Made by a program: the position numbers and the translations under genes. Of a DNA stretch of 64,000 nt, positions 58-60,749 are shown in pieces. Below the pieces are notes generated by a model that was not told where the DNA came from, searched no databases, and was given only the letters and a program-made list of their open reading frames with translations. How positions within the stretch are numbered: position 1 is the first letter of the stretch; each line of letters opens with the position of its first letter. This stretch comes from Pyrobaculum sp. 3827-6 (GTDB taxonomy: Archaea; Thermoproteota; Thermoprotei; Thermoproteales; Thermoproteaceae), in assembly GCF_025641885.1 (NCBI RefSeq), contig NZ_JAOTQN010000003.1, positions 1 through 64,000 of the forward strand. Reading direction: 5' to 3'.

Positions 58-320
58 GCCGTTCCTCACAAGACGGGAGACTCTGCGTAGAGACGGCGGG
101 TGAGAACGCGGCGCAGCGGAGCCGGACGCCGCTTCCTCACAAGGCGGAGAACCCGCCTCAGACACGGCGTATGAGGAACGCCGCGCTGTACTTCTAACGC
201 CGTTCCTCAAAAAGCGGGAGTCTAGGCGTGGGGGCGGCGGGTGAGGAACGGCGTATTGCAGTCGACACGCCGTTCTCACAAACCGAAAAATTCGGTGAAT
301 TAACGGCACGTGAGAACTAG
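58..320. repeat. Four tandem palindromic repeat units, period 69-71 bp
   Basis: Units begin at 58, 127, 196 and 267. Each has a left arm close to GCCGTTCCTCAC and a right arm close to GTGAGGAACGGC, separated by about 30-35 bases, so each unit (58-113, 127-185, 196-254, 267-320) can fold on itself. The arms co-vary: in unit 3 both carry the longer CCT/AGG form, in unit 4 both carry the shorter form (GTTCTCAC with GTGAGAAC). Units 2 and 4 hold an extra inner hairpin (143-157 and 282-296). The last unit overlaps the 3' end of the RadA-like gene. An origin, a partition site for the ParA-like proteins encoded upstream, or a set of RNA hairpins are all possible. No protein-coding gene is credible here. 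Confidence 0.85.
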
Positions 321-1249
321 TATAGGCCGTCATCTCGAATCTCGTAGCGAATCTCGACAGTAGGCGCCATGCCGGGGACGTCCAGCGGAATCATCACACC
401 CTCAGCCTTCTGCTTGTTAGGCCTCCTCATGAGAAACAACGCGTGGACACCGTGCAATAAGACGTTGCCGCCGGCAGGCCTCTTGCTACTGAAGAAGTCC
501 GGCACGTCGATAACCTGGTCCGTCAGTATGGACAGAGTGCCGTAGACGGCGGCCATCCTCCTCAGAATGTCAAGGAAGTAGGCCAGCAGCTGCTGACGGG
601 CGGCCAGCCTCTCACGCCCCCTAAACTGGGCGCGCAGGGCGTGAGACACCATGGAATCCACAACGACAACGTCGACGCCCCTCAGCGACAGCAGAACCTC
701 CTTCAAATCGATGGGATCTATCACCTGGGTGATGTGTAGCCTCTCCGACAGGCTAGTCAAGTCGGAGCCGAACCTCTTGGCGACTCTCTCGAATAGGGAG
801 AGGTTCAGCGCCCCCTCCGTGTCTATGTACACCACGCGCTTGCCGGCGACGGCCGCCAGCACCGACGCCTGAATTGCGAACATGGACTTCCCCGCCCCGT
901 ACTCCCCGGCCAGTCCGTAGATGTAGCCGAAGCGCAAGCCACCCCACGGCACTTTTTCATCAAATTCGCTCACATGCGTCTTCAACACCTCGACAGCGGC
1001 GTAGGACTTAACGGCATCCGCCACAGGCAGAACCCTGGCGCCGATGCCCGCCGCTCTCCTAACCGCGGCGAGTACCTCCTCGGCCTTCTCTAGGTCGTCC
1101 TCTAGCTCGAGGAGCTGGGCCAGCTCCACCACGTTCTTCACTGCGAGGTGCCTCAAGCCGCCCAGCTCCGTGCAGAGCTTGACCACGTCCTCCCTCCTCG
1201 GCCCTCTGTACTGGAGACAGTCCTCGGGAGCCTCCGCCTTCTTAGGCAT
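317..1249 (-). CDS. RadA/Rad51-like recombinase paralog
   Basis: A 310-residue RecA-fold ATPase. Walker A is GEYGAGKS (residues 115-122), the DTEG strand follows at about 143, and Walker B is VDVVVVDS (192-199). After it comes the RadA-type stretch with GRERLAARQQ and then the GGNVLLH segment that in RadA follows loop L2. The N-terminal 70 residues resemble the helix-hairpin-helix domain of RadA. The length fits RadA (about 320), but it is divergent and lies in an island, so it is more likely a paralog than the housekeeping recombinase. It is the last gene of the overlapping H-to-A operon (8-nt overlap with the gene upstream), two genes downstream of a SWIM protein. Family assignment is firm; the role in strand exchange or its control is inferred. 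Confidence 0.85.
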   Translation of the reverse strand: MPKKAEAPEDCLQYRGPRREDVVKLCTELGGLRHLAVKNVVELAQLLELEDDLEKAEEVLAAVRRAAGIGARVLPVADAVKSYAAVEVLKTHVSEFDEKVPWGGLRFGYIYGLAGEYGAGKSMFAIQASVLAAVAGKRVVYIDTEGALNLSLFERVAKRFGSDLTSLSERLHITQVIDPIDLKEVLLSLRGVDVVVVDSMVSHALRAQFRGRERLAARQQLLAYFLDILRRMAAVYGTLSILTDQVIDVPDFFSSKRPAGGNVLLHGVHALFLMRRPNKQKAEGVMIPLDVPGMAPTVEIRYEIRDDGLY

Positions 1250-1505
1250 TGCCTTTCTTCACCTCCTCTTGGAAAAACTTTACAAACTCGGCCCACTCCT
1301 CCTCTGTGAAGAAAGCCGCCTCCAGCTCTCTCGCCAGGGACTCGTCTCCGACGACTACTAGGAAGCTCCTGCCGACGTGGCTGAGAAGCTCCTCCCTCGA
1401 CCCTACGCAGACGACTTGGGGGTGCTCGACACAGCCGCCGTAGACGGCCATCATGCCGTAGAAGGGCATGTGCCGGAATAAATCTTTCATCGCCTCACTC
1501 TCCAA
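1242..1505 (-). CDS. Small uncharacterised island protein (87 aa)
   Basis: I do not recognise the family. The protein is short with an acidic C-terminal half (FTEEEWAEFVKFFQEEV) and an alternating strand/helix pattern in the middle (PQVVCVGSREELL, SFLVVVGDE). It overlaps the genes on both sides by 8 and 19 nt in the same direction, which supports it being a real member of the operon and probably translationally coupled. Confidence 0.6.
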   Translation of the reverse strand: MESEAMKDLFRHMPFYGMMAVYGGCVEHPQVVCVGSREELLSHVGRSFLVVVGDESLARELEAAFFTEEEWAEFVKFFQEEVKKGNA

Positions 1506-1894
1506 AACCTCCCACCTCTAAACAGAAGGACGGCGCACCTCTTAGCTACCGCAACGGCGTCGTAGTCCCTTGTAATGACGGCGCATCCAGCCCCGCACTC
1601 AGCCTCGCACAGCTCCGCGGCGTAGAGCTCCGCTGGCTTCTGCTCGGAGAGGCGGCAGTCCAGCCCATAGCGCCTGCACATCTCCAAGTAGCGCCTAGCG
1701 AGAGGCATGTGGATCTCGCTCCAGGCGTCCACCACAAACACCGCCTCCACACCAGCCTCCGCGGCAGATCTAAACAACTCCTCCGGATCGCTGAGGGCGG
1801 CCGCTATGGAGAAGACGTCTACGTAGAGCCTCCGGTAGTTGGCCGGCGAGTCTGGCTTAAGCTCGAATACGCCCTTCCTAGTCCTTACCCTCAT
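1487..1894 (-). CDS. PIN/NYN-like protein, possible nuclease
   Basis: 135 residues with an alternating strand-helix layout. Acidic residues sit where PIN and NYN nucleases keep theirs: RLYVDVFS near residue 25, VFVVDAWSE near 55, then KPAELYAAELCEAECG and AVITRDYDAVAVAKR near 107-117, the typical TxDxD-like turn of FEN1/NYN-type folds. Four cysteines cluster near residues 96-105. It overlaps the SWIM gene by 17 nt. The fold call is by eye and nuclease activity is inferred. Confidence 0.5.
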   Translation of the reverse strand: MRVRTRKGVFELKPDSPANYRRLYVDVFSIAAALSDPEELFRSAAEAGVEAVFVVDAWSEIHMPLARRYLEMCRRYGLDCRLSEQKPAELYAAELCEAECGAGCAVITRDYDAVAVAKRCAVLLFRGGRFWRVRR

Positions 1895-2462
1895 GGAATT
1901 TTGCGACGAGGAACTTCGCCACGGCGAGGGGCACCCCCTCCCCCTCTGCCTCGTAGACGACGTAGCCGCCGCACCTCACGGCGACGTGTCTCTGCCTAGA
2001 CACCACAAGCACTCTGAAACGCGGCGAGGCGAAAAATGTAAGGTCTACCTTCTCCACAGCAGGCTTGACGTACACCTCGCCGTTCGCCGATATGCGCCCC
2101 CGGCACTCCACCACAGCCTCGGCCACGTACACCACGCCTCTCTCAGCCTTCTCCAAGGCCTTCTTGTACCTGCGGAAGAGCATGACAGCCGCCACGTGTG
2201 TGCATATGTCTTTTCTACGCCTCACCCCAAACTGTGTGTAGTAGCAGGTGCAGAGCCAGCGCTTTTCAGCCTCCGACCACCAGACCTGGTACAGCGGCTT
2301 CCAGTCGCCAAGCTCACGCCTCCCCTCCACCACGTAGAGGTCCTCCCTCACCTCCTTGACATCACCGAGCCTTAGGAGGGCCCTCTTAATCCAGCTCCTC
2401 GACTTGCCGGGGAAGTCTGCCCTAAGCGCCTCCACAGCCCTACGCAGTGGGTCTCTCTGCAT
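1878..2462 (-). CDS. SWIM zinc-finger protein
   Basis: 194 residues. The SWIM signature CxCx(n)CxH is complete: C71, C73, C87 and H89 (CTC, then ICTH), preceded by a strand ending in KRWL as in other SWIM proteins. The first 45 residues look like a helical, possibly winged-helix, DNA-binding segment. SWIM domains bind DNA or proteins, and in eukaryotes the SWIM protein Shu2/SWS1 works with Rad51 paralogs. Here a RadA paralog lies two genes downstream in the same overlapping operon, so a recombination-mediator role is a reasonable inference. Confidence 0.8.
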   Translation of the reverse strand: MQRDPLRRAVEALRADFPGKSRSWIKRALLRLGDVKEVREDLYVVEGRRELGDWKPLYQVWWSEAEKRWLCTCYYTQFGVRRRKDICTHVAAVMLFRRYKKALEKAERGVVYVAEAVVECRGRISANGEVYVKPAVEKVDLTFFASPRFRVLVVSRQRHVAVRCGGYVVYEAEGEGVPLAVAKFLVAKFHEGKD

Positions 2463-3357
2463 AGGGAGGCACTGTGATGCGGAACTGGGCCCAGGTCCCG
2501 CGTAGAGGCAACAGCTTGGAGAGGGCCTCTGCCGAGCGGAGAGAGGCGGCTCTCACTGTGACAAACGCCTCAGAGGGCTGGAGGGGCGTTGTTTTAGACT
2601 CGTCTAGGTCCCAGTCGGGGAACCTAATCACCATCTTGACGTAGCCTAGGTGCCTCTGGAATTCTCTATAGGAGTGCGACACTAGGATGAAGAAGCGGCC
2701 GCGGCTTCTCCCAGTCCTCAGGTGGTCGGTGAGGAGGGAGTACCTCGATGTGAAGGCTAGGAAGCGGTGTGCCTCGTCTACTACGTAGATGACGTTCTTC
2801 ACGTCGCGCGTAAGCTCTAGATGCGCCAGCACGTAGGCCAGCCTCCCCACTCTATCCAGTCCCGAGACGTCGACGCAGGTCGAGGCTCCATGCCGGATAG
2901 GCACGTCAGTCTTCTCGAACTGAGGGCCGTCGAAGTGGACTAGACGCCTACGCAGGGCGTAGGCTGTGTCCATCTCGTGCGGCTCCGCGGCGTTCAGAAC
3001 CTCGCGCCTAACCTGCGAGAGGGTGTGTGCGCCTTTCTCAACCGTTCTGTGTAGAAGCTCGGCCATCGCGGGAGTCAGCAGATAGGGATACTCGCCGTAC
3101 GTGGCCGCGAGGCTCTCCTCCAAAATCTCCACGACGCGCGGAGTGGGGAGGTCGAGGGGGTTCACCGAGTACCGAGCGGCGTAGTTGCAGTTTTTGAAGT
3201 CGCCGGCGGTGTCGTAAACCACCACGGCGTAGTCGCTGGGGACCTCGCGGAGAGACCACTTGACGAAAGAAGTCTTGCCAGTGCCGGGGAGCCCCGTGAT
3301 TAGCGCATTCCCCTCAACGGCCGTCACAAGCCTGAAGAGCTGGGTGTAGAGAGTCAT
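2440..3357 (-). CDS. HerA/VirD4-like P-loop ATPase
   Basis: 305-residue AAA-type pump or helicase. Walker A is GLPGTGKT (residues 22-29) and Walker B is NVIYVVDEAHRF (about 188-199). A sensor-like LVSHSYREFQ follows, an arrangement typical of HerA, FtsK and VirD4 ATPases. DHLRTGRSRGRFFILVSHS resembles the 'trgGRk.g..ii.vtq' segment of this superfamily. No transmembrane segment is evident. It overlaps the SWIM gene by 23 nt. It could move or unwind DNA for repair or for transfer. Confidence 0.75.
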   Translation of the reverse strand: MTLYTQLFRLVTAVEGNALITGLPGTGKTSFVKWSLREVPSDYAVVVYDTAGDFKNCNYAARYSVNPLDLPTPRVVEILEESLAATYGEYPYLLTPAMAELLHRTVEKGAHTLSQVRREVLNAAEPHEMDTAYALRRRLVHFDGPQFEKTDVPIRHGASTCVDVSGLDRVGRLAYVLAHLELTRDVKNVIYVVDEAHRFLAFTSRYSLLTDHLRTGRSRGRFFILVSHSYREFQRHLGYVKMVIRFPDWDLDESKTTPLQPSEAFVTVRAASLRSAEALSKLLPLRGTWAQFRITVPPYAERPTA

Positions 3358-4130
3358 ACGCCCAGCGCCCTAATCCCCAGGTCTGTAAGCCTCACCGTGA
3401 GGGTGAGGGCGTCCAGCCTCACTAAACCCAGCTGAGAGGCTTTGACAACGGCTTGGCCGAACTTCTCCTGGGCGTACTTCAGCGATAGGAAGCCCCCGGC
3501 CTCCCATAGAGTGCGGAGTAGCTCCTTGACGTCGGGGTCCTCCACCTCGGTAATAGGCGGAGGCGTGTAGGGGCGGCACAGCCTACCGCCAGCCCAGGCC
3601 TTCTTCATCGCCAACCCCTCGTACGACAAGCCCTGGACAGCGAGAACAACCCTATCGGCGACAGCCGCCCTGGGGTCGTAGACAGAGGTGTAGACGCGCA
3701 GAGTGCCAGACAGGGGCTTAGCCATGGCAAGAAGGTCTGTATACATAGGCCAGGCGTCTGTATACACCTCAACAGCCCATCCCCCGCCGTATTTTGAATC
3801 TAGGTGGTGGGCTAGGGCGAGGCCCATCGCCAATAGGACGGGGTCGACGGGAGGCGCCTTGCACTGGAAGACGCCTTCCCCCACCTCCAGCTGGGAGTAG
3901 TCCACGTAGCGGAAGAGGGCGCATAGAGGGGCGTTGCACTGGGCCAGCTCGGCGGTGTGCCTCGGGTAGAGGGGAGGGTTGTTATTCCTAAGGAAGACTG
4001 TTGTAAAGACAAGAGAGCCCTCCGGCGTAAGCTCGAAGCCGAGGCCGGTTGTCTTCTCCGAGGGGCAGAAGGTGTACCTTATTTTCGCCTCAGGAGGCTC
4101 TGCAAGGCCGCCTATTACAATCTCCAGCAT
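3354..4130 (-). CDS. Uncharacterised protein with C-terminal winged helix
   Basis: The reading frame is open as far as 4310, but the ATG at 4130 is the better start: it forms a TGATG overlap with the stop of the gene upstream and avoids a 180-nt overlap. That gives 258 residues. The last 60 residues read as a winged helix (DVKELLRTLWEAGGFLS, then LTLTVRLTDLGIRAL). The middle part is mixed alpha/beta and unassigned. It sits between the Pro-rich protein and the HerA-like ATPase in the same operon. Confidence 0.65.
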   Translation of the reverse strand: MLEIVIGGLAEPPEAKIRYTFCPSEKTTGLGFELTPEGSLVFTTVFLRNNNPPLYPRHTAELAQCNAPLCALFRYVDYSQLEVGEGVFQCKAPPVDPVLLAMGLALAHHLDSKYGGGWAVEVYTDAWPMYTDLLAMAKPLSGTLRVYTSVYDPRAAVADRVVLAVQGLSYEGLAMKKAWAGGRLCRPYTPPPITEVEDPDVKELLRTLWEAGGFLSLKYAQEKFGQAVVKASQLGLVRLDALTLTVRLTDLGIRALGV

Positions 4131-4915
4131 CAGCAAGTTAACTGGATGGGTATCCCCACTAATTGTAGTAGCTGGTTTGCGTAGTGCGAGAAGACGGGGC
4201 AGCCCTTGTTGAAAAACTCCACTGCGAATTTCGGCTTCTTCCCTTCGTCTAGCCGTATGACGGCGAGTCTGGCGGGGGAGGCGTTTACCACGTAGCCCTC
4301 GTAGCGCCATATGGAGTACAGCTCCTCCCGCTTTGGTGGCCTAACCACGGCGCGGCGGTCGCAACCCAGCACAAGGGCGTATCCCCCCGACCTAAACAAC
4401 TGGGCGATGTGCTCGATGGAGCCCCTAAGTATGAAGCCGTAGGCACACAGCTGTTTATCCACACCGCCAGCGATGTAGAAGCGGTAGTCAGGCTCAGTCC
4501 ACCTATCCGCCCTCTTCACCCTCCTCAGCAGGTAGACCTCCTGCGGCGATTTAATAACGGCGACGTCTCCCAGCCTCACATACGGCTCGTTGACCGGCAT
4601 CCAGTAGACCGAGAGGAAAAACACCCTCTGCCGAATAGGCAAAACCCAGCCGGGCTCCACGGGAGGCGGGGGCGGCGCGTACTGCGCAGGCACGGGCTCA
4701 GGTGCGTCCGCCTCGAAGCCGGCGGGAGGCTCCCTGGGCGCTGGGGCCGGGCTTGTCGGCGTCTGCGGGCGGGAGCCGTCTCCGCCGAGTATCCTCCGCA
4801 GATACTCGGCCATGTCCACGGTGCCGGTGCCGCGCGCCGTCTCTTCTCTGGCCAGGGTCTGCGTCTCGCCGCAGAGGTCTGGCCTCCTCACGCAGATCTC
4901 CCTCGGATCGGTCAT
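4130..4915 (-). CDS. Uncharacterised protein with Pro-rich linker
   Basis: 261 residues. An N-terminal segment of about 45 residues is followed by a Pro/Ala-rich stretch (about 50-92, including APPPPPVEPG) and a globular C-terminal domain. The linker suggests two tethered domains. There is no signal peptide or membrane segment. It overlaps the downstream gene by one base (TGATG) and the membrane-protein gene upstream by 4 nt, so it is probably made together with both. Family not recognised. Confidence 0.6.
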   Translation of the reverse strand: MTDPREICVRRPDLCGETQTLAREETARGTGTVDMAEYLRRILGGDGSRPQTPTSPAPAPREPPAGFEADAPEPVPAQYAPPPPPVEPGWVLPIRQRVFFLSVYWMPVNEPYVRLGDVAVIKSPQEVYLLRRVKRADRWTEPDYRFYIAGGVDKQLCAYGFILRGSIEHIAQLFRSGGYALVLGCDRRAVVRPPKREELYSIWRYEGYVVNASPARLAVIRLDEGKKPKFAVEFFNKGCPVFSHYANQLLQLVGIPIQLTC

Positions 4916-5310
4916 AGCGGCGGCGGGGGTCTTGTCATGTTGTACAGCTTGGCCACTTCGTAGAGTAGATTAAACAACGTGGAGTGCCAGTTTATGAGCA
5001 TTAGGTAGGCCACGACTAGGTAGATAGCCGTGGCGTATGCAACAGCCTTAACTAGGCTCTGCGCCTTTCCCATCTTGTAGAGAAAGACTAGAATCATTAC
5101 AATTCCCACCGCAACGGCGGCCCACCTGACGGCGCCTTCGTAGACGTGTAAATTCTCATTTCCAACCACGAAGAGGTGCAGAGCAAACAGCAACAGCACG
5201 GGCATGGAGTAGATAACGCCGAATCCAAAGCCGAGGAACAGCGTCTCGAAGCCAGACCAGAGGACGCCCAGCGCCTTCATAAACCCGCTCGGCCCGTTTT
5301 TCCGCGGCAT
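4912..5310 (-). CDS. Four-helix membrane protein, first gene of the RadA/SWIM operon
   Basis: About 132 residues with four hydrophobic segments: around GFETLFLGFGFGVIYSMPVL, the adjacent LLLFALHLFVV, WAAVAVGIVMILVFLY and AVAYATAIYLVVAYLMLI. The ATG at 5310 is preferred over one 9 nt upstream because an AAGGTTTTT box lies at the right distance for leaderless transcription. In archaeal DNA-transfer systems (Ced/Ted) small multi-helix membrane proteins accompany a HerA-like ATPase. The gene next door encodes such an ATPase, but I cannot show homology. Confidence 0.65.
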   Translation of the reverse strand: MPRKNGPSGFMKALGVLWSGFETLFLGFGFGVIYSMPVLLLFALHLFVVGNENLHVYEGAVRWAAVAVGIVMILVFLYKMGKAQSLVKAVAYATAIYLVVAYLMLINWHSTLFNLLYEVAKLYNMTRPPPPL

Positions 5311-5328
5311 GTCCAACACACGCCCGGA

Positions 5329-5346
5329 GGCGGAAAAACCTTACCC
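5329..5346 (-). promoter_or_regulatory. Promoter of the H-to-A operon
   Basis: Minus strand reads GGTAAGGTTTTTCCGCC, with the T run about 24-26 bp from the ATG at 5310. The same box precedes other units of the island. Confidence 0.55.
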
Positions 5347-5388
5347 CCCACACACGCCCAGCCGGCGGCGTCTACGCCCCCGGCGCCC

Positions 5389-7365
5389 TCACGCCTTCAG
5401 CCGCAGATCGAGGGGTATCTTCATGTAGTACTTCATGCCGCGTGTGCCCACGATGAGCACCCCCATCGAGTAGGGCCTCTTCTCCAGCGCCGTGGACTCC
5501 CTCGGCGTCACTGACGTCTGTAGGTAGTTCTCATCCGTCTTGGTAAGCCTCAGCTCTGCCACGGTGTCAGCCAGGTAGATGTAGTTGCCTGAAAACACCA
5601 CCACAAAAGCGGCGTTCTTCAACACCTTGCGGGGAATGTCGTCGTGCGCCTGCACGATTAGCCATATGGAGAAGCCCCACTTCCTCCCACCCAAGGCGTA
5701 GGTCTTCACCTTGCGAAGCGCCGTAGATTCGATCTCCCCCAGCGCGTTTATCGCCACTGTGGAGCCCACCAAACGAGCCTCGTCCACTATAACGACTGTC
5801 CTCAGCTTTTCGTATCTCTGACCCGCGAGGAGGGCGTAGTGGTATATCAAGAGGAGGGAGAGGTAGAAGGCCAGCATCTCCTCGTCCTCGGCCACGGCGT
5901 CCATGGCGTAAACCACGTGGCCGCCCCCCACATCCACAAACTCAGACGGGTACAGCCTAGCCAACGTGGCGGCCACATCCACCTCGCCACCCTCACCCCT
6001 CACCACCTCCACACTAAACTCCTCCAAGAGGCGTCTGAAGTACTTGTTGCGGGATAGGGAGAGGACGCCTTTGGGTAGCTCCCTCGGCACGTCCACTACC
6101 CTGGCGCCGAGTAGCTTCGCCAGCTGTCTGTAGTCTCCGTGGGGGTCGATGACGACGAGGTCTACGCCCAGCTCGGCCAGCTTCAGGGCCCAAGTCCCAA
6201 CTGTCCACGACTTGCCGGTGCCAGAGGCGCCTATTATGACGGCGTGCGCCGTGGGCAGTGCGTCTATGTCTATGCCGACGGGCCGGCCGAATCTGTCGAA
6301 GCCAAGCTCAAGCCTCCTACCCACAGCCATGGTGGAGCCGCCGTAGAACACCGGGAACCTAGCCAAGTCGTGTGAAAGCGCCTTGACGCCATTCCTCAGC
6401 GTCCAGAAGTCGTACGCCGCGATCCAGTCCTGCGTCATGTAGATAGAGTGGAGGTCTTTGCTACCAAATGGGTAGATCTTGACGGGCCTCTCGTTGTACC
6501 TAGCCATCCTGTCTATGAACTCCGACAGCTCTCTGATCCTAATAAGGCGCTTGCCTGTATCGCGGCCTTCATAAGCCTTGACGAACTTCTTCTGCACCTC
6601 CCCCGGGCTCCAGTCTGTAAAGGCCACGGCCCACTTAGACATGTCGGCGAACGCCGTGGCCTCCGCCGACGCCATTGTCTCCAACATGTCCCTAGAAGCG
6701 GGTAACGCCGAGGCTCTGGACATATGGGAGAGGGTGGCTATGAGGAGGGGCTCCCGGTGCCACCTCCTAACCCGTCTGTATACAAACAGCCACAGCGGTA
6801 TCACCAGCAGAAACCAGCCGCTGGACGCGAGGGCCAGTAGGAAGAACGCCAGGGAGGTGGCGTAGGGCCAGGGTGCTGGGGGTTTCTGGGAGCTGGATAC
6901 CCAGGGCCTCACCCTCCTCAACACGAAGTACTCCCCCAGCACCTGCTCCACCTGCCTCACGCGGTCCGGCGCGAGGCGCCTGGCGGTGTACCGTATGTAC
7001 TTCATCTCCCCGACGACGAAGTAGGTCACCCACTCCCAGCTCTTAAGCGAAAGCTTTGAGTAGAGCTCGTGGAGGCGTGGAGCCGCCTCTATGCCGTACA
7101 CCGACAGCACCGGCTCAGCCGCCCAGAACACGTGGTACAGCCTGCGGCGGGGGTCGAAAGCCGCCTTGACGCCCGGCTCCTCGTAGAGCACTCTCACAGG
7201 CTCCAGAGGGGCGATCCGCGTGTATATCCACACAAGCACCTCCTCACCCCAGGCCAGTATTGGAAAAACCGCCAGCAGAGCAAGCGGGGGGTAGGCCTTG
7301 GCTAGTATAGCAATGGCCAGAAGCGACAAGCCGAATAACGCAAGTGTCTTGTCGTAGTAGTTCAT
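5389..7365 (-). CDS. Membrane-anchored HerA/VirB4-like ATPase
   Basis: 658 residues. Two hydrophobic hairpins lie at about 8-40 and 169-196. The motor domain has Walker A IIGASGTGKSW (about 377-387), the HerA-typical DPHGDY (407-412), Walker B VVIVDEARLV (524-533) and the following SIWLIVQAHDDIP segment. Membrane anchoring plus a HerA/VirB4 motor is the architecture of archaeal DNA-transfer ATPases (CedB/TedB) and of conjugation ATPases. It ends the N-to-I unit. A DNA pump at the membrane is inferred; chromosome-partition or virion-packaging roles are alternatives. Confidence 0.8.
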   Translation of the reverse strand: MNYYDKTLALFGLSLLAIAILAKAYPPLALLAVFPILAWGEEVLVWIYTRIAPLEPVRVLYEEPGVKAAFDPRRRLYHVFWAAEPVLSVYGIEAAPRLHELYSKLSLKSWEWVTYFVVGEMKYIRYTARRLAPDRVRQVEQVLGEYFVLRRVRPWVSSSQKPPAPWPYATSLAFFLLALASSGWFLLVIPLWLFVYRRVRRWHREPLLIATLSHMSRASALPASRDMLETMASAEATAFADMSKWAVAFTDWSPGEVQKKFVKAYEGRDTGKRLIRIRELSEFIDRMARYNERPVKIYPFGSKDLHSIYMTQDWIAAYDFWTLRNGVKALSHDLARFPVFYGGSTMAVGRRLELGFDRFGRPVGIDIDALPTAHAVIIGASGTGKSWTVGTWALKLAELGVDLVVIDPHGDYRQLAKLLGARVVDVPRELPKGVLSLSRNKYFRRLLEEFSVEVVRGEGGEVDVAATLARLYPSEFVDVGGGHVVYAMDAVAEDEEMLAFYLSLLLIYHYALLAGQRYEKLRTVVIVDEARLVGSTVAINALGEIESTALRKVKTYALGGRKWGFSIWLIVQAHDDIPRKVLKNAAFVVVFSGNYIYLADTVAELRLTKTDENYLQTSVTPRESTALEKRPYSMGVLIVGTRGMKYYMKIPLDLRLKA

Positions 7366-7746
7366 GGCCTAGCCGCCTCCTCCGCCTCTTTGTACTGGCC
7401 GCGCCACAGCAGATCGACAACTTTGGCTATGTCGGCGCCGGTCCAGGCGGCTTTGAATATAATGTCGCGGCTTCTCTCGTCGTCCCAAAGCGCGACGAGC
7501 TTCCGGTAGCAGTCAAACACGTCGGGACACGTCGTCGCCAGGTCGTACAGCTCCGGGAACATAGGCTCCACCCCCAGCTCCCTCCAGAGAGTGGCGAGAT
7601 CCACCACGCGGGGGCGCCGGCTCCACCCCCAGCTCCCTCCAGAGAGTGGCGAGATCCACCACGCGGGGGCGCCACTCCGGAGGCGGAGGCGGCACCTCCC
7701 TCCTCACCGGCTCTCTGCTTAGCAGAGTCTTAAGCTCCTCAGTCAT
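7362..7746 (-). pseudogene. Small island protein interrupted by a 55-bp tandem duplication
   Basis: The 5' part (from 7746) and the 3' part (to 7362) lie in different frames. They join into one protein of about 109 residues if one copy of the 55-bp tandem repeat at 7564-7673 is removed. The restored product matches the C-terminal part of the neighbouring gene at 7743-8156 (shared ELGVEP..PELYD, then a Cys-flanked CY motif and an EA-rich end). A GTG at 7607 could restart translation of the 3' part (81 residues). It may be a recent mutation, a reversible phase switch or an assembly error. Confidence 0.7.
7564..7673. repeat. Perfect 55-bp tandem duplication
   Basis: Copy 1 is 7564-7618 and copy 2 is 7619-7673, identical by eye. 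As 55 is not a multiple of three, the duplication shifts the reading frame of the gene it sits in. Both copies encode RVVDLATLWRELGVEP in their own frame. Confidence 0.9.
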
Positions 7747-8156
7747 GGCTCCACCAGCTTCTTAGCCTCGTCTATTCTGCCCTCTAGTATCAGTTTTGCA
7801 ACGTGTTCCGTATCCAGCCCAGCCACGGCGGCTTCAAACAGCAGCCACTTGTGCGGCGTCTCCCAGACGTCGATGAACATGGCGTAGCACCTCTGCCAGT
7901 CTCTACAAGTCTTAACAGCCATGTCGTACAGCTCCGGGTAGAGGGGCTCCACCCCCAGCTCCCTCATAGCCCTCTCCAGCGGAATGGTCCTGGGCTTCCA
8001 CTTCTCCGGCGGAGGCTCCGGAATTCTAACCCTCTCCTCCGGCCTGAATTTCGAAGCCTCCTCCCTCTGCCTCTTCAGCAACTCCATAAGCTCCTCCCGC
8101 GGCGTCTTCGGCCTCTCGGCCTTCTTCTTCTCCCTCGCCATCTTCATAGTATCCAC
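7743..8156 (-). CDS. Uncharacterised island protein, paralog of the interrupted neighbour
   Basis: 137 residues. The first half is highly charged (KKKAERPKTPREELMELLKR) and probably helical; the second half is a compact helical domain shared with the next gene (RELGVEPLYPELYD, CRDWQRCYAMF, ILEGRIDEAKKL). Two copies side by side indicate a tandem gene duplication. It overlaps the P-loop gene upstream by 13 nt. In-frame ATGs at 8147 and 8141 are alternative starts. Function unknown. Confidence 0.65.
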   Translation of the reverse strand: MDTMKMAREKKKAERPKTPREELMELLKRQREEASKFRPEERVRIPEPPPEKWKPRTIPLERAMRELGVEPLYPELYDMAVKTCRDWQRCYAMFIDVWETPHKWLLFEAAVAGLDTEHVAKLILEGRIDEAKKLVEP

Positions 8157-8962
8157 TGGACTATCTGCTTCAGCATTTTGCCCATCCTCCTTCTGAACCG
8201 CGTCAGCTCTGCGGCTAGGAGGGGGTGGAGGCCTTCGCGCATGTACCAGCTTATCTCGCGTATATGCGGTATCCAGCCTCTCACCCAGGCGGAGAGGGTG
8301 CCGGCCTTGTTTACAACGATGTAGTAGCCCCGCCTCTCCAGCGACTCCACGTCTATTCGCCGCAGGTCTGTGGGCTCCAACACGGCGATGTATTTGTCTG
8401 CCGGCGGTATTTCGTAAATCGCCGAGGTGTCCACGACGGCGTACCTAGCCTTCATCTGCAGAGCCTCGGCCGGCTCCGCGGCGAGTGGGACTAGCCCCTT
8501 CAAGAGCCGGGCACCAGTCTTGTCGGGCGTCGCGTCTATGAAGACGGTCTTCCCCGGCGCCGCCCAGTGCAGGTAGAGGGCGAGGGAGGTGGCGAGGAAG
8601 GTCTTTCCCGCGCCCAGGGGCCCTATCACCCCCACTGTTTTGAGAGTCATGGGGGTTCTAGACAGGTTGGGGGGGAAAAACCTTGTCAGGTACCTCTCCA
8701 CTTCTTCCAGCGCCTCGCCTACCAACCTGCCGTAGTCTGTAAGGACGTAGACGCCTTCCAGCGCCGCGGCTTCGCGTCTCACTAGCTGTGGCCATACCCT
8801 CCAGTCGTAGTGGAGGCCGGCGCATCTAACGGCCTCTCTAGCCAGGGCCTCTAGCTCACCCGCCGCGGCCGGCCCCCTCATCAACCTCCTAATCAGCTTG
8901 TAGCGGATAAGCTCCCCCACCGGCGTGTAGACCTCAGCCCACCCAGCGGCGCACACAGTCAA
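8144..8962 (-). CDS. ParA/MinD-like P-loop ATPase with N-terminal wHTH-like extension
   Basis: 272 residues. Residues 1-104 look like a winged-helix region (VYVLTDYGRLVGEALEEVERY). From M105 the ATPase domain starts at once: MTLKTVGVIGPLGAGKTFLA with Walker A GPLGAGKT, then VFIDATPDKTGARLL and YAVVDTSAIYE. This resembles ParA/MinD/CpaE-type ATPases but is short. A promoter-like box sits exactly 26 bp before the codon for M105 (8650), so a 168-residue ATPase-only form may also be made. It belongs to the N-to-I unit. Confidence 0.65.
   Translation of the reverse strand: MTVCAAGWAEVYTPVGELIRYKLIRRLMRGPAAAGELEALAREAVRCAGLHYDWRVWPQLVRREAAALEGVYVLTDYGRLVGEALEEVERYLTRFFPPNLSRTPMTLKTVGVIGPLGAGKTFLATSLALYLHWAAPGKTVFIDATPDKTGARLLKGLVPLAAEPAEALQMKARYAVVDTSAIYEIPPADKYIAVLEPTDLRRIDVESLERRGYYIVVNKAGTLSAWVRGWIPHIREISWYMREGLHPLLAAELTRFRRRMGKMLKQIVQWIL
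8671..8687 (-). promoter_or_regulatory. Promoter-like box inside the P-loop ATPase gene
   Basis: The 17-mer GGGGGAAAAACCTTGTC (plus strand) is identical to the one at 9634-9650. On the minus strand its AAGGTTTTT lies 26 bp before the ATG at 8650, the spacing of a leaderless archaeal promoter. Confidence 0.45.
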
Positions 8963-9375
8963 GCCCCACGCGGCCTCCTAGCCAGAAGGCCGGCCAGCCT
9001 CCTCGCCGCGTTTACAAACGCCGAGGGGATAGACCAAGCAGCGGGCAAAGCCGCGTGTATAGACGCCGCGCCTCTCCTAAGCGCCACCACGTCCAGCGCC
9101 TCCGCCGCCGTGTAGCCCTGCTTCACAAGCCTAGCCACCTCCCCCGCCAGCTTGGCGAGGCGCCTCTTGTTTGTATTAGCCAAGAGGCGCCACTCCTCCT
9201 CCCCCAGCCACACGCCGTGGCTGGCGGCGTTTAACACGGCTTTGAGCATCTCCCTCTCAGAGACCCCCAGCGCCTCCGCCTGCCGGCAGATCCACTGCGC
9301 GGTGGTGGCTGTGAGGCCTCTCCTCAGCGCCGCGTTCAAAATGCGGCAGTCCGGCCCGCTGTCGCGGCGGCGCAT
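8959..9375 (-). CDS. Uncharacterised basic helical island protein
   Basis: 138 residues, Ala/Arg/Leu-rich and almost all helical; ends in a basic tail (AARRLAGLLARRPRGA). No known motif. It starts one base after the stop of the small gene upstream and overlaps the P-loop gene by 4 nt, so it belongs to the same unit. Nucleic-acid binding would suit its charge but is only a guess. Confidence 0.55.
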   Translation of the reverse strand: MRRRDSGPDCRILNAALRRGLTATTAQWICRQAEALGVSEREMLKAVLNAASHGVWLGEEEWRLLANTNKRRLAKLAGEVARLVKQGYTAAEALDVVALRRGAASIHAALPAAWSIPSAFVNAARRLAGLLARRPRGA

Positions 9376-9376
9376 G

Positions 9377-9616
9377 TCACTTCTTTGTGAGTAGAATCAA
9401 CGCGAACTTGACGTATGGGTCTGACACACTTGAAAGTATCTTCACAGCGTAGTCCTGTGGTATACAACTCACTATCCTCACTGCCAAATCCTCAGGCATG
9501 GAGGCAATTGCTCTGACCAGAAGCTCCACCCAGTTCTCGGAGGGCGTCTGCTGGCCCTCCGCCTTAACCTGTTGCGAGTCCTGGGGCTGTCCCCTTAAGA
9601 CACCTAGGTTTAGCAT
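9377..9616 (-). CDS. Small uncharacterised protein, first gene of the N-to-I unit
   Basis: 79 residues. A Gln/Ser-rich N-terminus is followed by two helical hairpins with a repeated pattern (MPEDLAVRIVSCIPQDYAV, then KILSSVSDPYVKFALILL). The ATG at 9616 is supported by a promoter-like box 26 bp upstream. Family not recognised. Confidence 0.6.
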   Translation of the reverse strand: MLNLGVLRGQPQDSQQVKAEGQQTPSENWVELLVRAIASMPEDLAVRIVSCIPQDYAVKILSSVSDPYVKFALILLTKK

Positions 9617-9633
9617 GTGCGTTGTGGAGAGGA

Positions 9634-9650
9634 GGGGGAAAAACCTTGTC
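9634..9650 (-). promoter_or_regulatory. Promoter of the N-to-I unit
   Basis: GGGGGAAAAACCTTGTC on the plus strand; the minus-strand AAGGTTTTT core lies about 26 bp from the ATG at 9616. Identical over 17 bp to the box at 8671-8687. Confidence 0.55.
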
Positions 9651-9651
9651 T

Positions 9652-10350
9652 TTAGCTCTTTATCTTGGTGAGGAGCTCCTCTACGCTCCTCCGGTTTTCT
9701 CTATCGCGCAGAATCGCCGCCGCGACGGCGTCTGCGTGGTACTGCCGTATGTGGCCGACGTGTCTCAGCACGTAGGGGGTTATGCGCCTCGCCTGCAACA
9801 TCTCTGCCTTGTCTACCTGGTTGATGACTAGGGCGGAGGCGTATGAGGTGTATCTGTTGTACTGCTCAGCCTTGACGTCCGAAACCTTCGACAACATGCG
9901 GCCGTCTCCCACGAAGACGGTGAAGAGGCCGAGCTTCTGGAGGCTCTCCAGAAGCTCCGTCCTCAGCGCCGGGGTGGTGTCGATGACGACGGTGTCTACT
10001 GGTAGCTTCGTCTTGTCGACGAACTGGGGGAGGTACTCGACCCACTCCAAAAGCGCAAGCTCAAGCTCCTTCACAACAGACTGATCCTTCTGGTAAAGCT
10101 CAACGGCGTCGTAGCCGGGGAGCACGTACAGCGTGGGGTTTACCTGGTGCAAATACGGCTGTCCCCTCATAAAGGGCGCGACCCAGCCGGGCCTCCTGGG
10201 GACTCTGAAGAGTTGGCTCAGCTCGGCCTTCTCCCAGTCTGCGTCTATGACGAGGGTGAAGCCCTTGGCTATTGACATCACGGTGGCTAGGGTGGTCTTC
10301 CCCACTCCGCCGTCGAGGGAGTATATGGCCACTGTCTTTATGGTTCTCAT
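9652..10350 (-). CDS. ParA/MinD-family partition ATPase
   Basis: 232 residues. Deviant Walker A SLDGGVGKTTLA (about 11-22), FTLVIDADWEKAELSQLF as the switch I/A' segment, and Walker B VDTVVIDTTPALR (about 118). The first Lys of the classic KGGxGKT is replaced by Asp here. ALVINQVDKAEM corresponds to the base-recognition strand. Such ATPases position plasmids, chromosomes or membrane machines. It has its own promoter-like box and lies next to many small genes, any of which could be the partner DNA-binding protein. Confidence 0.8.
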   Translation of the reverse strand: MRTIKTVAIYSLDGGVGKTTLATVMSIAKGFTLVIDADWEKAELSQLFRVPRRPGWVAPFMRGQPYLHQVNPTLYVLPGYDAVELYQKDQSVVKELELALLEWVEYLPQFVDKTKLPVDTVVIDTTPALRTELLESLQKLGLFTVFVGDGRMLSKVSDVKAEQYNRYTSYASALVINQVDKAEMLQARRITPYVLRHVGHIRQYHADAVAAAILRDRENRRSVEELLTKIKS

Positions 10351-10370
10351 GGGCTGGGCTCTACCTCTCT

Positions 10371-10381
10371 GGATAAAGCTT
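10371..10381 (-). promoter_or_regulatory. Promoter of the ParA-like gene
   Basis: Minus strand AAGCTTTATCC, centred about 26 bp before the ATG at 10350 in a 60-bp gap with no coding sequence. Confidence 0.45.
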
Positions 10382-10411
10382 CCGCCAGGGCCTTGGCTGG
10401 GCGGGCCATGG

Positions 10412-10699
10412 CTACCGCCGCTCTCTAGCCGCCAGCTCTAGGGCTTTTAGCTTGAGGTGTAGCCCGTATACCAGCGGCCCCGCCTCAGCCCGGGCCTCTC
10501 TCCACACCGCTTTTTTAAAGGGGGTGTCCCCCAGCCCCGAGGCGGCTAGCCACTGGTGGAAGCCTCTGTAAGGCCCCTCTCCAGTTCTCAAAACCACCTC
10601 GACAGCCTCCTCCCAGTGGGGGCTTTTCTCAGCCCTCTCCGCCAGCTCCCTCACCTTCTCGCAGACGAGGTTTATCAACAGCCTCTCCACCTCACTCAT
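10412..10699 (-). CDS. Small helical island protein (95 aa)
   Basis: Mostly helical and charged (CEKVRELAERAEKSPHWEEA), with a central GPYRGFHQWLAASGLGDTPF segment and a Lys/Arg/Leu-rich end. Overlaps the gene upstream by 4 nt; last gene of the T-to-P unit. Family not recognised. Confidence 0.55.
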   Translation of the reverse strand: MSEVERLLINLVCEKVRELAERAEKSPHWEEAVEVVLRTGEGPYRGFHQWLAASGLGDTPFKKAVWREARAEAGPLVYGLHLKLKALELAARERR

Positions 10700-11046
10700 A
10701 GCCCGAGGGCCCTCCTTATCTCTCTCAACACCTGTATCTTAAAGGCTTTGTTTACCAGAGGCAACAGCTTAGCCACGGCGTTGTGTTTATACGCCGAGGG
10801 GCCCAGCTCTCTCTGCAGAAGCGCGAGGATGGGGGCGTGCGCCGGCCCTAGGCCGAGCCTCTCAGCCACAAGCGGCACCTCCTCCCCCGGGTGCCTAACC
10901 ACAGCCTCCAGCACCTGCAGAGCCCGGCAGCCAGGCCCCCTCCACCTCCTCCCGGCGCATATCTGGTAGTAGACGCCGAGGCTCAGCGCCTTTTCCAAAT
11001 CTCTACAAATCACGTCAATCACGGCCCTCTGGGCGTGTAGACGCAT
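10696..11046 (-). CDS. Small helical island protein (116 aa)
   Basis: Arg/Leu/Ala-rich. The middle (CRALQVLEAVVRHPGEEVP, then VAERLGLGPAHAPILALL) resembles a helix-turn-helix arrangement, so DNA binding is possible. Overlaps the gene upstream by 32 nt with this ATG; a later start would shorten the overlap. Family not recognised. Confidence 0.5.
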   Translation of the reverse strand: MRLHAQRAVIDVICRDLEKALSLGVYYQICAGRRWRGPGCRALQVLEAVVRHPGEEVPLVAERLGLGPAHAPILALLQRELGPSAYKHNAVAKLLPLVNKAFKIQVLREIRRALGL

Positions 11047-11434
11047 AAACCTTCTCTCTTATCCTAGCCTCCTGCCACGGGGGGAGCAGGTCGAACATGT
11101 AGAAAGGCATGGGCATCCCGGAGGCCTCCGCCCTCACCCGCTCGGCGAGGTAGGCGGCGCAGAACTGGCGGAGGGCCAGCTCCCTGGGCACAGCCATGTA
11201 GAATCTGAGGGGGCCGGCGACTACGTCGTAGAATACTGCAAACAGCTTTTCATTTACGCCGATTAAATCCGCCAAGTCGCTGGAGCCCATGAAGACGTAG
11301 CCCCCCTCCCCCCTCGCCACCTCTGTAAATAAACAAGCCGCTAGACAGACGCTGGGTAGCGGCTTTAGAAACTTCTCGCCGCGGCATTTTTTACACACCT
11401 CCTCCACCTCCTCCAGTCTACAACAGATCTGCAC
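11015..11434 (-). CDS. Cys-containing uncharacterised protein (139 aa)
   Basis: The N-terminus carries CC at residues 4-5 and CKKC at about 14-17, a possible metal knuckle, followed by a helical body (SSDLADLIGVNEKLFAVFYD). The arrangement is faintly like a zinc ribbon plus cyclin-type helices of TFB but too short to claim. Overlaps the genes on both sides; part of the T-to-P unit. Confidence 0.5.
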   Translation of the reverse strand: MQICCRLEEVEEVCKKCRGEKFLKPLPSVCLAACLFTEVARGEGGYVFMGSSDLADLIGVNEKLFAVFYDVVAGPLRFYMAVPRELALRQFCAAYLAERVRAEASGMPMPFYMFDLLPPWQEARIREKVYASTRPEGRD

Positions 11435-11780
11435 CGCGTAGCTTCTCTAAATGTTTTAAATATATCCACACCGACCTGGCCACGAGCTGGTGGTATGAGA
11501 TGTGGCCGCCGCCGGTTAGCCGCGCGGCGGCTCTGAGCAACAGCTCCCGGGCCTTGTCCTTCTGATACCCCTCGAAGGGTAGCTCGGCCTTCACCGGGTA
11601 GGACCACCTCACCACAGCCCCCCTCTCGTTCAGCGTCACGGCGAGAGCCGCGGCGCAGAGCAGGGGGTTCTCCACCAGAAACTCAAATTTTCTACACCGG
11701 CACCACAGCCGCGCCAGCTCCTCCACTGCCTTCTCCACGCCGGGTATCGAAAGGGCTCTGGGGGACGGGGAGCAGGTCAC
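11418..11780 (-). CDS. Uncharacterised island protein (120 aa)
   Basis: Helical, with a CRCRKFEF segment near residue 27 and a basic C-terminal half (ISYHQLVARSVWIYLKHLEK). Overlaps the gene upstream by 4 nt and the one downstream by 17 nt. Family not recognised. Confidence 0.5.
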   Translation of the reverse strand: MTCSPSPRALSIPGVEKAVEELARLWCRCRKFEFLVENPLLCAAALAVTLNERGAVVRWSYPVKAELPFEGYQKDKARELLLRAAARLTGGGHISYHQLVARSVWIYLKHLEKLRGADLL

Positions 11781-12454
11781 GCCTTGAGCAAATCAGCCAC
11801 CAGCCTCTCCACAACGCCCCTCTCCACATCCCACATCTTGATAATAATCTCGGCGATTTCCAACAGCCTCGGGCTGTCTCTCAGACGGGCGCACACGGCG
11901 TCGAGTCTCTCCGCGGTGCCGGGCCTCTCCGCGGCGCGGCCCGCCCTCTTCCCAACGCCAGCCTCCAAGCCCGGCCCGCGTTCTATCTGCAGAGCCGAGT
12001 CCTCCTCCTGCCAGCCCGCTACGAACTTTCTGCGGATGTCCTCCCAAATGTCCAGCTCTATACCCAGACTAGAGAGTTTTTTTCTCAGCATATTCACAGC
12101 CTCTCTTCTCAAGGCTAGGGGTTTTGTAAAGAAGTAGTAGTGGAGGATGTGGGAGGCCTTTATGTACATCGTCTTTTTATCTCTGTACATAAACACCAGC
12201 GTGTAGAGCGTAGCCGGCGACTCAGCCGCCACGGCCTCCTCGCCGTCTGTCAACACGACGCTGATTTCAAGCCCAATCCCCAGCTTCTCCAGGTGGTATT
12301 TAATGGCCTCGTAGTCGATTATGTAGGGGAGCCACTTCGGCGCGTCGGCGGCTTCGTAAGTTAGGTATATTGTAGGAACGTTAAGTTTATATAGACCGCG
12401 GAATACCTTAACTGTGGCGTCTTCCAGCTCTATGACCTCTAACAGCGATGACAT
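11777..12454 (-). CDS. Uncharacterised protein, first gene of the T-to-P unit
   Basis: 225 residues. A mixed alpha/beta N-terminal half (VPTIYLTYEAADAPKWLPYI) is followed by a Gly/Arg/Glu-rich linker near 155-180 and a C-terminal helical segment (LLEIAEIIIKMWDVERGVVE). The ATG at 12454 lies inside the left arm of a 12-bp inverted repeat and has a TATA-like AACTTTTGG 26 bp upstream, so the start and its control site overlap. Function unknown. Confidence 0.6.
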   Translation of the reverse strand: MSSLLEVIELEDATVKVFRGLYKLNVPTIYLTYEAADAPKWLPYIIDYEAIKYHLEKLGIGLEISVVLTDGEEAVAAESPATLYTLVFMYRDKKTMYIKASHILHYYFFTKPLALRREAVNMLRKKLSSLGIELDIWEDIRRKFVAGWQEEDSALQIERGPGLEAGVGKRAGRAAERPGTAERLDAVCARLRDSPRLLEIAEIIIKMWDVERGVVERLVADLLKA

Positions 12455-12521
12455 ATGTTAAGAAGAGCCCCGATATGTCCAAAAGTTATCATTTGGACAA
12501 ATCACCGCGCTTCTTAACATA
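12454..12521 (-). promoter_or_regulatory. Nested inverted repeats over the promoter and start of the T-to-P unit
   Basis: Outer arms TATGTTAAGAAG (12454-12465) and CTTCTTAACATA (12510-12521) are perfectly complementary. Inner arms TGTCCAAA (12476-12483) and TTTGGACA (12492-12499) are too. The inner arm overlaps the TATA-like AACTTTTGG (12479-12487); the outer arm contains the start codon at 12452-12454. It can serve as an operator, or as a hairpin in read-through RNA from the upstream gene that hides the start codon. Confidence 0.7.
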
Positions 12522-13154
12522 GGTAAAGCCGACTTTTAATGTAGTTCTACCGAGGAAGGAGTCCACCGACGCCACGGCTTTATTTCTAGCCCAGTAGACG
12601 AGAGAGGCCAGGCCGTGTAGCCTCCTGCCTCTGTAGGTGCAGGAGGCGAGTGTTTCCGGCGGCGGGAGGTCTGAGAAGAGGCGCTCAACAACCTCCACCG
12701 GCTTTTCGTACAGCTTAAGCATCCGCCTCTTGTTTAGGTAATCCCACAGCTCCACCCCGCGGGCCTCCGCCCTCTTGGTTAAGCTGTAGCACCTAGCTAC
12801 ATATCTCCAGCCTCTGTGTAGACTCATGAGAAACACCGCCGGCGACGCCTCGCAACGCTCCTCAAGTACGCAACCAGCCGGCGGCGTGAGCCAGCGCTCC
12901 GCCGCCGGGGTTAGGCGGTCGCTGGCGAAGTCCTCCCACCACCCCCGCCACGGGCCGGCGAACACCGCCCCTCTAAACGCCGTGTGGAGGACGTGGGGGT
13001 TCCGGTAAGCCGTCTCGTAGGCGCCCTCCCCCGTCAGCCCGCCGAAGTATCTATCTAGGTACTCACAAACCCCACCCAGCAGTTGGCATACCAGCTCAAA
13101 GTCTCTGTAGTGGAGTAGGGCGGTGGGCGGGAGCCTAGGCGTGAAGACCACCAC
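12489..13154 (-). CDS. Uncharacterised protein, first gene of the island
   Basis: The frame is open to 13223 (244 residues), but the GTG at 13154 is preferred: an AAGGTTTTTA box lies 22-31 bp upstream, giving 221 residues. The protein is rich in Trp, Tyr and Arg (RGAVFAGPWRGWWEDFASD; CYSLTKRAEARGVELWDYL). No family recognised. Its stop codon lies within the inner palindrome that controls the next unit. Confidence 0.55.
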   Translation of the reverse strand: MVVFTPRLPPTALLHYRDFELVCQLLGGVCEYLDRYFGGLTGEGAYETAYRNPHVLHTAFRGAVFAGPWRGWWEDFASDRLTPAAERWLTPPAGCVLEERCEASPAVFLMSLHRGWRYVARCYSLTKRAEARGVELWDYLNKRRMLKLYEKPVEVVERLFSDLPPPETLASCTYRGRRLHGLASLVYWARNKAVASVDSFLGRTTLKVGFTYVKKRGDLSK

Positions 13155-13175
13155 GCAGAGACCCCCTAGACCCCA

Positions 13176-13185
13176 TAAAAACCTT
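13176..13185 (-). promoter_or_regulatory. Promoter of the first island gene
   Basis: Minus strand AAGGTTTTTA, 22 bp from the GTG at 13154 to its near edge; same class as the boxes at 5334, 8676 and 9639. Confidence 0.5.
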
Positions 13186-13886
13186 TCCTCGGCGAAGATA
13201 CCAGACCCCCTATACAAAAACAAAAACCATTAAGGCGCTCGCTTTAAGTCAGTCAAAAGGAAAAAATATATAGATAGAAGTTTTGGCCAACTAGAGTCTA
13301 TATATCGATAATATCTGTAAATTGAGGGTACTGTTTTAAAGCCGGTGTATCCATAGACCCCGCCGAAACTTCCAGAAAACTCCCCCCCCGTATATAAAGA
13401 TATGTAGCGGTGTTTTGCGCCCCGGGGCCCGCCTCCATTTTCCAACACGGCGGCGGGCGCCGGGGGCTCTGCTGAATGTAAACGGGGTAGCACGTCCCCC
13501 TCCCCTTTTCATCTCTCAACTGCTCGCCGGGTGTTTTTTCGCCGGATGTAAACAGGGCAGTCTCGGCGGGTGGCTAAAACGCCTCCCTAAGCGCCGCCGC
13601 CTTCAGAGTCCTAAAGGCCCCGGCCGCCTTCATCTTACTGCCCTCCGCTTGAAATCAAGCCGTCCAGGGCCCTGTAATCAAAAGATAGTTGAAACAGCGG
13701 CGGCGGGAAAGAAAACCGAAGCCGGGCCCGGGGCTCCGCATATTCTTTTCTATACTCTTCCTGACAGAAGGAAAGGGGGGTAATGTAAATTGCTTGAGAT
13801 ATGTAGCGTCTTTGAGCCGGAGGGGCGGCGATCGGCAGATGAGAGCGACGCAGTGAAGTCCACAACATGCACCGGGAATTGCGGTG
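13186..13886. other. 700-bp noncoding stretch between the island and the carotenoid operon
   Basis: Several frames are open but none looks like a protein (Arg/Pro-rich, no start signals). The stretch holds an AT-rich part (13260-13330), a diverged direct repeat GATGTAAAC near 13473-13489 and 13546-13562, the palindromes GCTTGAAATCAAGC (13647-13660) and CAGGGCCCTG (13665-13674), and one CRISPR-like repeat at 13671-13695. Confidence 0.5.
13671..13695. repeat. Single CRISPR-like repeat unit
   Basis: 25 bp ending in AAAAGATAGTTGAAAC. From memory this closely resembles a repeat type found in Pyrobaculum and Thermoproteus CRISPR arrays. I find no second copy in the window, so this is not an array. 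It directly follows two palindromes. Confidence 0.4.
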
Positions 13887-55525: not shown

Positions 55526-55548
55526 AAAGAGGCCGTGCGGCGTCGGAT

Positions 55549-58614: not shown

Positions 58615-58721
58615 CCCGCCCGGCGCTTTTCCTCACCCGGCGGGGCTCCCGGCGCCCTTTGTAGATTTCGGCGCGCCGCCTCCGCCCGGCGTCTTTCAGC
58701 CGCTTTTCGGCGTCTACGGCG

Positions 58722-60723: not shown

Positions 60724-60749
60724 CTGATGAAGTTTAATAAACAGGCGGA

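Follow-up and report, generated by a model that had tools for sequence, protein, structure and literature searches.

The 64,000-nucleotide window analysed here (G000:C3:1-64000, where G000 is the genome of Pyrobaculum sp. 3827-6, contigs C1–C7) begins with an operon of approximately 21 overlapping, minus-strand open reading frames (ORFs; 317-13154) that is a Ted (Thermoproteales exchange of DNA) locus. The system is of the known Ted kind, and the new result concerns its copy number and its mobility: the cluster is probably the upstream part of a Ted system carried by a mobile integrative island of ~33–42 kb where its length could be measured, several diverged members of which share one chromosome, rather than a single domesticated host locus. 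Our data suggest that the Ted machine, although described as domesticated, continues to move as a genetic element. Below, G029 denotes the nearest sequenced relative and G028 the locus used as P. calidifontis.

With the 658-amino-acid (aa) ATPase of the cluster as query, 45 genomes of the order yielded five full-length matches in G000 (on C1, C2, C3, C5 and C7) and three in G029, and several other genomes have one or two each. This ATPase and the one encoded upstream of TedC in G028 are 31% identical over nearly their full length (E=5e-73), and profile searches of PDB match it to HerA (9x1l, E=1e-14) and VirB4 (4ag5, E=5e-9); our alignment of the TedB family has 13 members. In the published account that named the system, TedB is VirB4-like and encoded a few genes upstream of TedC, with ParA-like and HerA-like neighbours (PMC9905601); ParA/MinD-type and HerA-like ATPases are likewise co-located in the window cluster. 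Gene order is largely conserved across loci, running from the ParA-like gene through a small paralog pair (7743 and 7362), the ATPase, the genes at 4130 and 3354, the VirD4-like motor, the SWIM protein, the gene at 1487 and the RadA paralog, and continuing with TedC, TedA and a very long ORF. The pilin of G028 matches PDB entry 8DFT, the P. calidifontis Ted pilus, along the whole chain with one difference; TedC occurs in the C1 copy of G000 (L029:5305-5859, matching 8DFT with E=2e-10) and in the C2 copy, and TedA, a channel with multiple transmembrane (TM) segments encoded directly downstream of tedC, occurs in both of these copies and in all three G029 islands. Given TedB orthology, gene order and the presence of TedC and TedA in sister copies, the window cluster is a Ted locus cut by the contig end before the position of TedC, and we predict from its gene content that the system assembles a Ted pilus and transfers DNA.

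The initial annotation had described a one-strand, overlapping, uncharacterized island suited to DNA transfer and comparable to the Ced or Ted systems. The layout is confirmed by orthologous copies and their substitution patterns (below), and the comparison proved literally correct, by TedB orthology, gene order and an 8DFT-type pilin; no pilin or channel had been visible because the contig ends just before them. The cluster had been treated as a single island and is in fact one of five copies, and a comparison of gene order, as had been proposed, found the order conserved rather than scattered in relatives. Two HerA-like motors and two ParA-like ATPases had been assigned, which matches to DUF87, TrwB/VirD4 and AAA_31 support, more weakly for the second ParA-like protein (8144-8962); the recombinase paralog and the SWIM protein were recovered as well, the latter below the profile cutoff. 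Ced of Sulfolobales and Aeropyrum resembles Ted in having a VirB4-type motor, a VirB6-type channel and a VirB2-type pilin as the transfer unit, but no Ced component matched at family level, CedD doing so via the P-loop only and far below cutoff.

Five Ted islands are present in G000 and three in G029, and four of the five in G000 are missing at the syntenic position of the relative. As G000 contigs break at the islands, we used G029 as a scaffold to place contig ends (syntenic flanks mostly 94–98% identical). The ends C2:222231 and C1:1406641 are contiguous in G029 near 1824160 (site 1), C5:163160 and C3:191500 near 70306 (site 2), and C1:33778 and C5:~7930-8240 near 228713-228752 (site 3); at the site of the window copy (site 4), window 13890 and C6:20081 lie ~520 bp apart in G029 (2266697-2267219), a complex indel. 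The fifth island, at the end of C4 and probably continuing in C7, has the same left flank as G029 island A and a different Ted type. Empty sites occur in the other direction too, the G000 chromosome being uninterrupted at window 55517-55537, where G029 holds a 41.1-kb island.

Insertions strike the 5′ ends of genes, a tRNA gene among them. The latter is the target at site 3, where its first 13 nt are kept at the left flank and a complete tRNA gene stands at the right; this right-hand gene lacks a short insert present in the relative's copy, and ARAGORN calls the two copies differently (Pro-CGG vs Arg-TCG), probably owing to an intron. Protein genes are the targets at sites 1 and 2, where the promoter and the first nucleotides of the gene occur in two copies; ahead of the start codon, the right-hand one has diverged. 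This duplication of target 5′ end and promoter is imperfect at three sites, and in G029 island B the replacement affects the promoter side alone, with no clear direct repeats. At the junctions the right-hand flank first departs from the empty-site sequence and then regains ~97% identity to it. A single integrase acting on one att site was considered and ruled out, since the targets differ (tRNA gene, protein genes).

The copies are not recent duplicates. Synonymous divergence (dS) between the window copy and the others is mostly 0.2–0.9 vs a baseline of 0.13 for the chromosome shared by G000 and G029, which rules out recent duplication within G000 and suggests that the island copies diverged before the two genomes split. 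Ratios of nonsynonymous to synonymous divergence (dN/dS) of ~0.05–0.3 for core genes across orthologous copies mean that the cluster genes are truly coding and point to purifying selection on them (0.05–0.09 for the RadA paralog, whose copies are 93–97% identical; 0.56, on little divergence, for the membrane protein 4912-5319). Together, dS above the baseline and low core dN/dS indicate diverged, functional family members that coexist. Elsewhere the distribution is patchy: among the Pyrobaculum genomes tested, the core protein 3354-4130 has a strong homolog, apart from G000 and G029, in P. oguniense and G028 only, and most yielded no strong ortholog of TedB or the core protein. TedB of P. oguniense, at 509.6 kb, falls within a 485–530 kb region that a genome report describes as paREP2-associated and absent from P. 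arsenaticum (~96% nucleotide identity; PMC3558965), so a second pair of close relatives also appears to differ in Ted.

Several observations weigh against mobility. No integrase, transposase or DDE, serine or HUH recombinase was recognized in the island genes scanned with Pfam (small unassigned genes remain), nor was a relaxase, in keeping with the initial annotation, which had seen no integrase, relaxase, capsid or replication initiator. Integration by an unrecognized recombinase or by the island's own recombination proteins is therefore possible. We know of no excised circular form, at each duplicated target the right-hand copy has diverged, unlike a fresh target-site duplication, and no G000 island lies whole on one contig. 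Presence and absence could also reflect deletion in the relative. Archaeal conjugative plasmids also lack recognizable relaxases according to the Ted report, which by analogy with Ced regards Ted as domesticated and as directed to import (PMC9905601). Domestication would make the islands old duplications kept for DNA import, immobile by themselves and lost in different combinations by the relative, as the published description, the lack of recognized integrase or relaxase, inter-copy dS above strain divergence and repeats that favour deletion would all allow. We nevertheless find it unlikely. The unoccupied chromosome is contiguous at G029 sites 1 to 3 and at window 55517-55537, differing by no more than a few tens of bp, and random deletion is disfavoured because deletions would have to end exactly at both island edges; in addition, islands interrupt one tRNA gene and two protein genes at the 5′ end, and each gene is whole again beyond the island, which is the pattern left by integration. 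The site common to both genomes, moreover, holds different Ted types. Domestication is thus weakened by two-way empty sites and by split-and-restored targets, and the earlier verdict of ‘domesticated or of an unknown type’ finds no support in that form: the system belongs to a known type, and the islands behave as mobile, with five diverged copies that are present or absent by site.

How mobile islands travel is a separate matter. Ted machinery may move them as ordinary chromosomal DNA, with imported donor DNA that carries an island at the corresponding site recombining via homologous flanks and no integrase needed, a mechanistic variant compatible with mobile Ted islands that we regard as possible if somewhat doubtful. 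It would suit the RadA, SWIM and FEN/PIN genes, HerA–NurA in some islands, the diverged right flanks of the junctions and the different Ted types at one shared site, yet it leaves the first arrival at each new site and the duplication of target 5′ ends unexplained. An unrelated kind of integrated element (plasmid, virus or defence island), which the ParA-like genes and the restriction enzyme and BrxL of the C1 island might bring to mind, is very improbable: Ted pilin and channel are present, and neither a capsid nor a replication initiator is among the families found. A plasmid or virus origin was ruled out by the absence of megablast matches in phage and plasmid collections, where protein matches were only short and confined to the P-loop; the cluster, as the initial annotation had allowed for, might have been a known plasmid or virus, and nothing similar appeared among those records.

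Two features of the islands bear on how Ted might work. A periodic array of inverted repeats separates the RadA paralog from the next gene, with half-sites spaced by 38, 30, 39, 31, 39, 33 and 38 bp in the window and by 38, 31, 38, 31, 38, 31 and 38 bp in P. oguniense, while G029 island C has an array of matching geometry built on another word (GTTTACA). Ten shuffles of the window produced no array of ≥4 sites, the window array folds better than 100 of 100 shuffles (z −4.7), and TTCTCA-type clusters in the G000 DNA retrieved all lie inside Ted islands; a motif-free scan found no periodic array in the P. calidifontis locus or in more distant loci. From its sequence, the array is a candidate cis-acting transfer or partition site, and a helix–turn–helix protein encoded directly upstream of TedC in complete copies (L042:3714-4028) is a candidate binder. 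Just beyond the upstream edge of the island (13439-13591) a GTTTACA-type array remnant, with two half-sites 70 bp apart, resembles G029 438898-439052 and is possibly the scar of an older Ted island.

The second feature is a very long ORF after TedA in every examined locus that extends that far. Where it could be followed, its product measures 4,372 aa in P. oguniense and 4,594 and 4,642 aa in G029 (split into two ORFs in G029 island A), and it measures at least 4,528 aa in G028 and at least 4,768 aa in genome G040. N-terminal TM segments precede a very long A/E/R/L-rich tail, with an extra TM segment near residue 890 in the G029 proteins, and PaRep2b (PF07775; E=4e-107 in P. oguniense) forms the C-terminus. 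Some 20 stand-alone PaRep2b-type genes or fragments that have sequence in common with this C-terminus are scattered in G000 and G029 (e.g. L116:4065-5809), and one PaRep2b-like gene of this kind has a match to a LAGLIDADG-like domain. Scattered repeats of 0.2–4 kb, retrieved with the island tail, had been considered as relics of Ted islands with common transposon-like ends; this was rejected, and the repeats are not used as proof of past insertions, because their recurrent 1.2-kb unit is PaRep2b-type gene sequence that also occurs in the giant C-terminus.

Genes of the window copy are listed in Table 1. The gene at 1487-1894, core in almost all Ted loci, encodes a protein whose best Foldseek matches are FEN1 (5zof, E=5e-4), 4wa8 and GEN1 (E=5e-4 to 8e-4), with invariant acidic residues D26, D56, D110 and D112; from its modelled fold it is a candidate for Ted's missing nuclease. 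The RadA paralog was found in nearly all examined islands and the SWIM protein has orthologs in Ted islands including that of P. calidifontis. Profiles of TrwB/VirD4 were matched by five of nine orthologs of the soluble ATPase (2440-3357), for which a profile search of PDB returned no match. For the core protein the ORF extends to 4310, but its N-terminal extension is not conserved, placing the gene at 3354-4130; its structure model reached a pLDDT of only 68, too low for a fold comparison. The frameshift in the gene at 7362-7746 is caused by an exact tandem duplication of ~53 bp (window 7537-7640) specific to this copy, either a recent mutation or an assembly error. Orthologs of the 8144-8962 protein lie upstream of TedB in most Ted loci whose sequence covers that region, as a single ORF in the window copy and as two ORFs in some others. 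The variable module, where matched, has 27–52% identity to its counterparts in the C2 and C5 copies, and other genes replace it elsewhere.

Table 1. Features of the window, with strand and supporting evidence (positions in nucleotides).
Feature	Position	Strand	Evidence or remark
Periodic inverted-repeat array	62-316	-	8 alternating half-sites TTCTCA/TGAGAA
RadA/Rad51 paralog, 310 aa	317-1249	-	Pfam Rad51 E=8e-21; NCBIfam RadA below equivalog cutoff
Small protein, 82 aa	1242-1490	-	In several copies
FEN1/PIN-fold protein, 135 aa, core, predicted nuclease	1487-1894	-	AlphaFold pLDDT 94.5; Foldseek
SWIM-type zinc-finger protein, 194 aa, core	1878-2462	-	Pfam SWIM E=0.002, below cutoff
Soluble HerA/VirD4-like P-loop ATPase, 305 aa, core	2440-3357	-	Pfam TrwB_AAD_bind 22.3 bits vs cutoff 20.5
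Core Ted-island protein, fold unassigned, 258 aa	3354-4130	-	9-sequence alignment, own genome to P. calidifontis
Core protein, low-complexity N-terminus, 261 aa	4130-4915	-	Conserved in copies
Small multi-helix membrane protein, 135 aa, accessory	4912-5319	-	Only in window (C3) and C2 copies
TedB, membrane-anchored VirB4/HerA-type ATPase, 658 aa	5389-7365	-	Pfam DUF87 E=7e-13
Small core protein, frameshifted in window copy	7362-7746	-	Single intact 109-aa ORF in C2 and C7 copies
Paralog of gene 7362-7746, 134 aa, core	7743-8147	-	
Second ParA/VirC1-like P-loop protein, upstream of TedB	8144-8962	-	AAA_22 E=0.005, AAA_25 E=0.03 (weak)
Small protein, 138 aa	8959-9375	-	Conserved between copies
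Small protein, 79 aa	9377-9616	-	Conserved between copies
ParA/MinD-like ATPase, 232 aa	9652-10350	-	AAA_31 E=7e-5; PHROG ParA E=2e-10
Variable module, six small genes (10412, 10696, 11015, 11418, 11777, 12489)	10412-13154	-	
Upstream/promoter region	13155-13413	-	Common to copies C2 and C5; homology with window ends ~13413
Empty site	55517-55537	.	41.1-kb Ted island in G029 (2309935-2351028) here, just before tpiA-like gene

The left window edge is the contig end and therefore not an element boundary, the cluster being truncated there; homology among copies extends upstream of 13154 and stops abruptly at ~13413. A prenyltransferase/phytoene-type (carotenoid) gene cluster, assigned by eye from sequence, adjoins the island (window 13887-17896), with similar DNA in genome G033 and P. 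oguniense and none at the corresponding place in G029. A dispersed segment of ~2.1 kb (window 58611-60921) has copies 88–91% identical at C1:31578-33664, where the C1 Ted island has its left edge, as well as at C4:177132-179446 and in G029 at 247–249 kb and 2430–2432 kb. Among other island cargo, a type IIG restriction–methylation enzyme stands beside BrxL near the left end of the C1 island (L043:5557-10706), G029 island B carries a HerA-like ATPase and NurA, and in G029 island A a CRISPR-like array with 13 repeats at regular spacing separates TedA from the giant gene (L048:1512-2344). A large ORF (~1,360–1,390 aa; L030:2376-6461, L043:1253-5416, L083:4878-9017) with STAND-like P-loop and TPR matches, plus a divergent small gene, is located at the upstream end of several islands.

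The island is most likely an integrative element of conjugative type that works through the Ted pore and pilus. For the direction of transfer, the substrate, the role of the array and the chemistry of integration we infer a scheme from these parts. The FEN/PIN nuclease, joined by HerA–NurA in islands carrying them, would produce a single-stranded substrate, which the ParA-like proteins and the VirD4-like motor would deliver to the TedB–TedA–TedC pore and pilus. The periodic array would mark the element for transfer or partition, and the island's RadA paralog may assist recombination of the incoming strand into the chromosome at the 5′ ends of genes.

Compared with Ted of P. calidifontis, the islands described here have the same TedB-type ATPase, 8DFT-family TedC, TedA, ParA-like and HerA-like genes and conserved order, but those of G000 are multi-copy and site-polymorphic, with a variable upstream module and accessory cargo; neither a giant PaRep2b-type protein by TedA nor an array by the RadA paralog is described in the accessible sections of the Ted report (PMC9905601). 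With integrative and conjugative elements they have in common VirB4-like and VirD4-like motors, integration into the chromosome, in one case at a tRNA gene, occupied and empty chromosomal sites, cargo and several related elements per genome, whereas no relaxase or tyrosine or serine integrase was recognized in them and target sites vary by copy. The PaREP2 regions of Pyrobaculum are tied to Ted by the C-terminus of the giant protein and by the P. oguniense locus that coincides with a paREP2 region absent from P. arsenaticum; in the accessible portion of that genome report they are not linked to DNA transfer, PaREP2b being called a putative transposon (PMC3558965).

A bolder proposal, which we offer as tentative, is that Ted in Pyrobaculum comprises relaxase-free, integrase-free conjugative islands rather than a domesticated import device, in which single-stranded DNA would be made by the FEN/PIN nuclease from a periodic inverted-repeat origin and would enter at gene 5′ ends by the island's own RadA, with the giant PaRep2b-type protein as a constant part of the machine. 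The islands supply candidates for missing pieces of archaeal conjugation: a FEN/PIN nuclease could stand in for a relaxase, and further candidates are a giant protein beside the channel, a cis-acting array and a second motor, which is VirD4-like. They also tie the PaREP2 repeats long known from Pyrobaculum genomes to DNA transfer. Ted and Ced have been presented as a rare case of a conjugation machine tamed by cells; five diverged, site-polymorphic copies in one genome make it testable whether Ted is a host organ, a selfish element or both.

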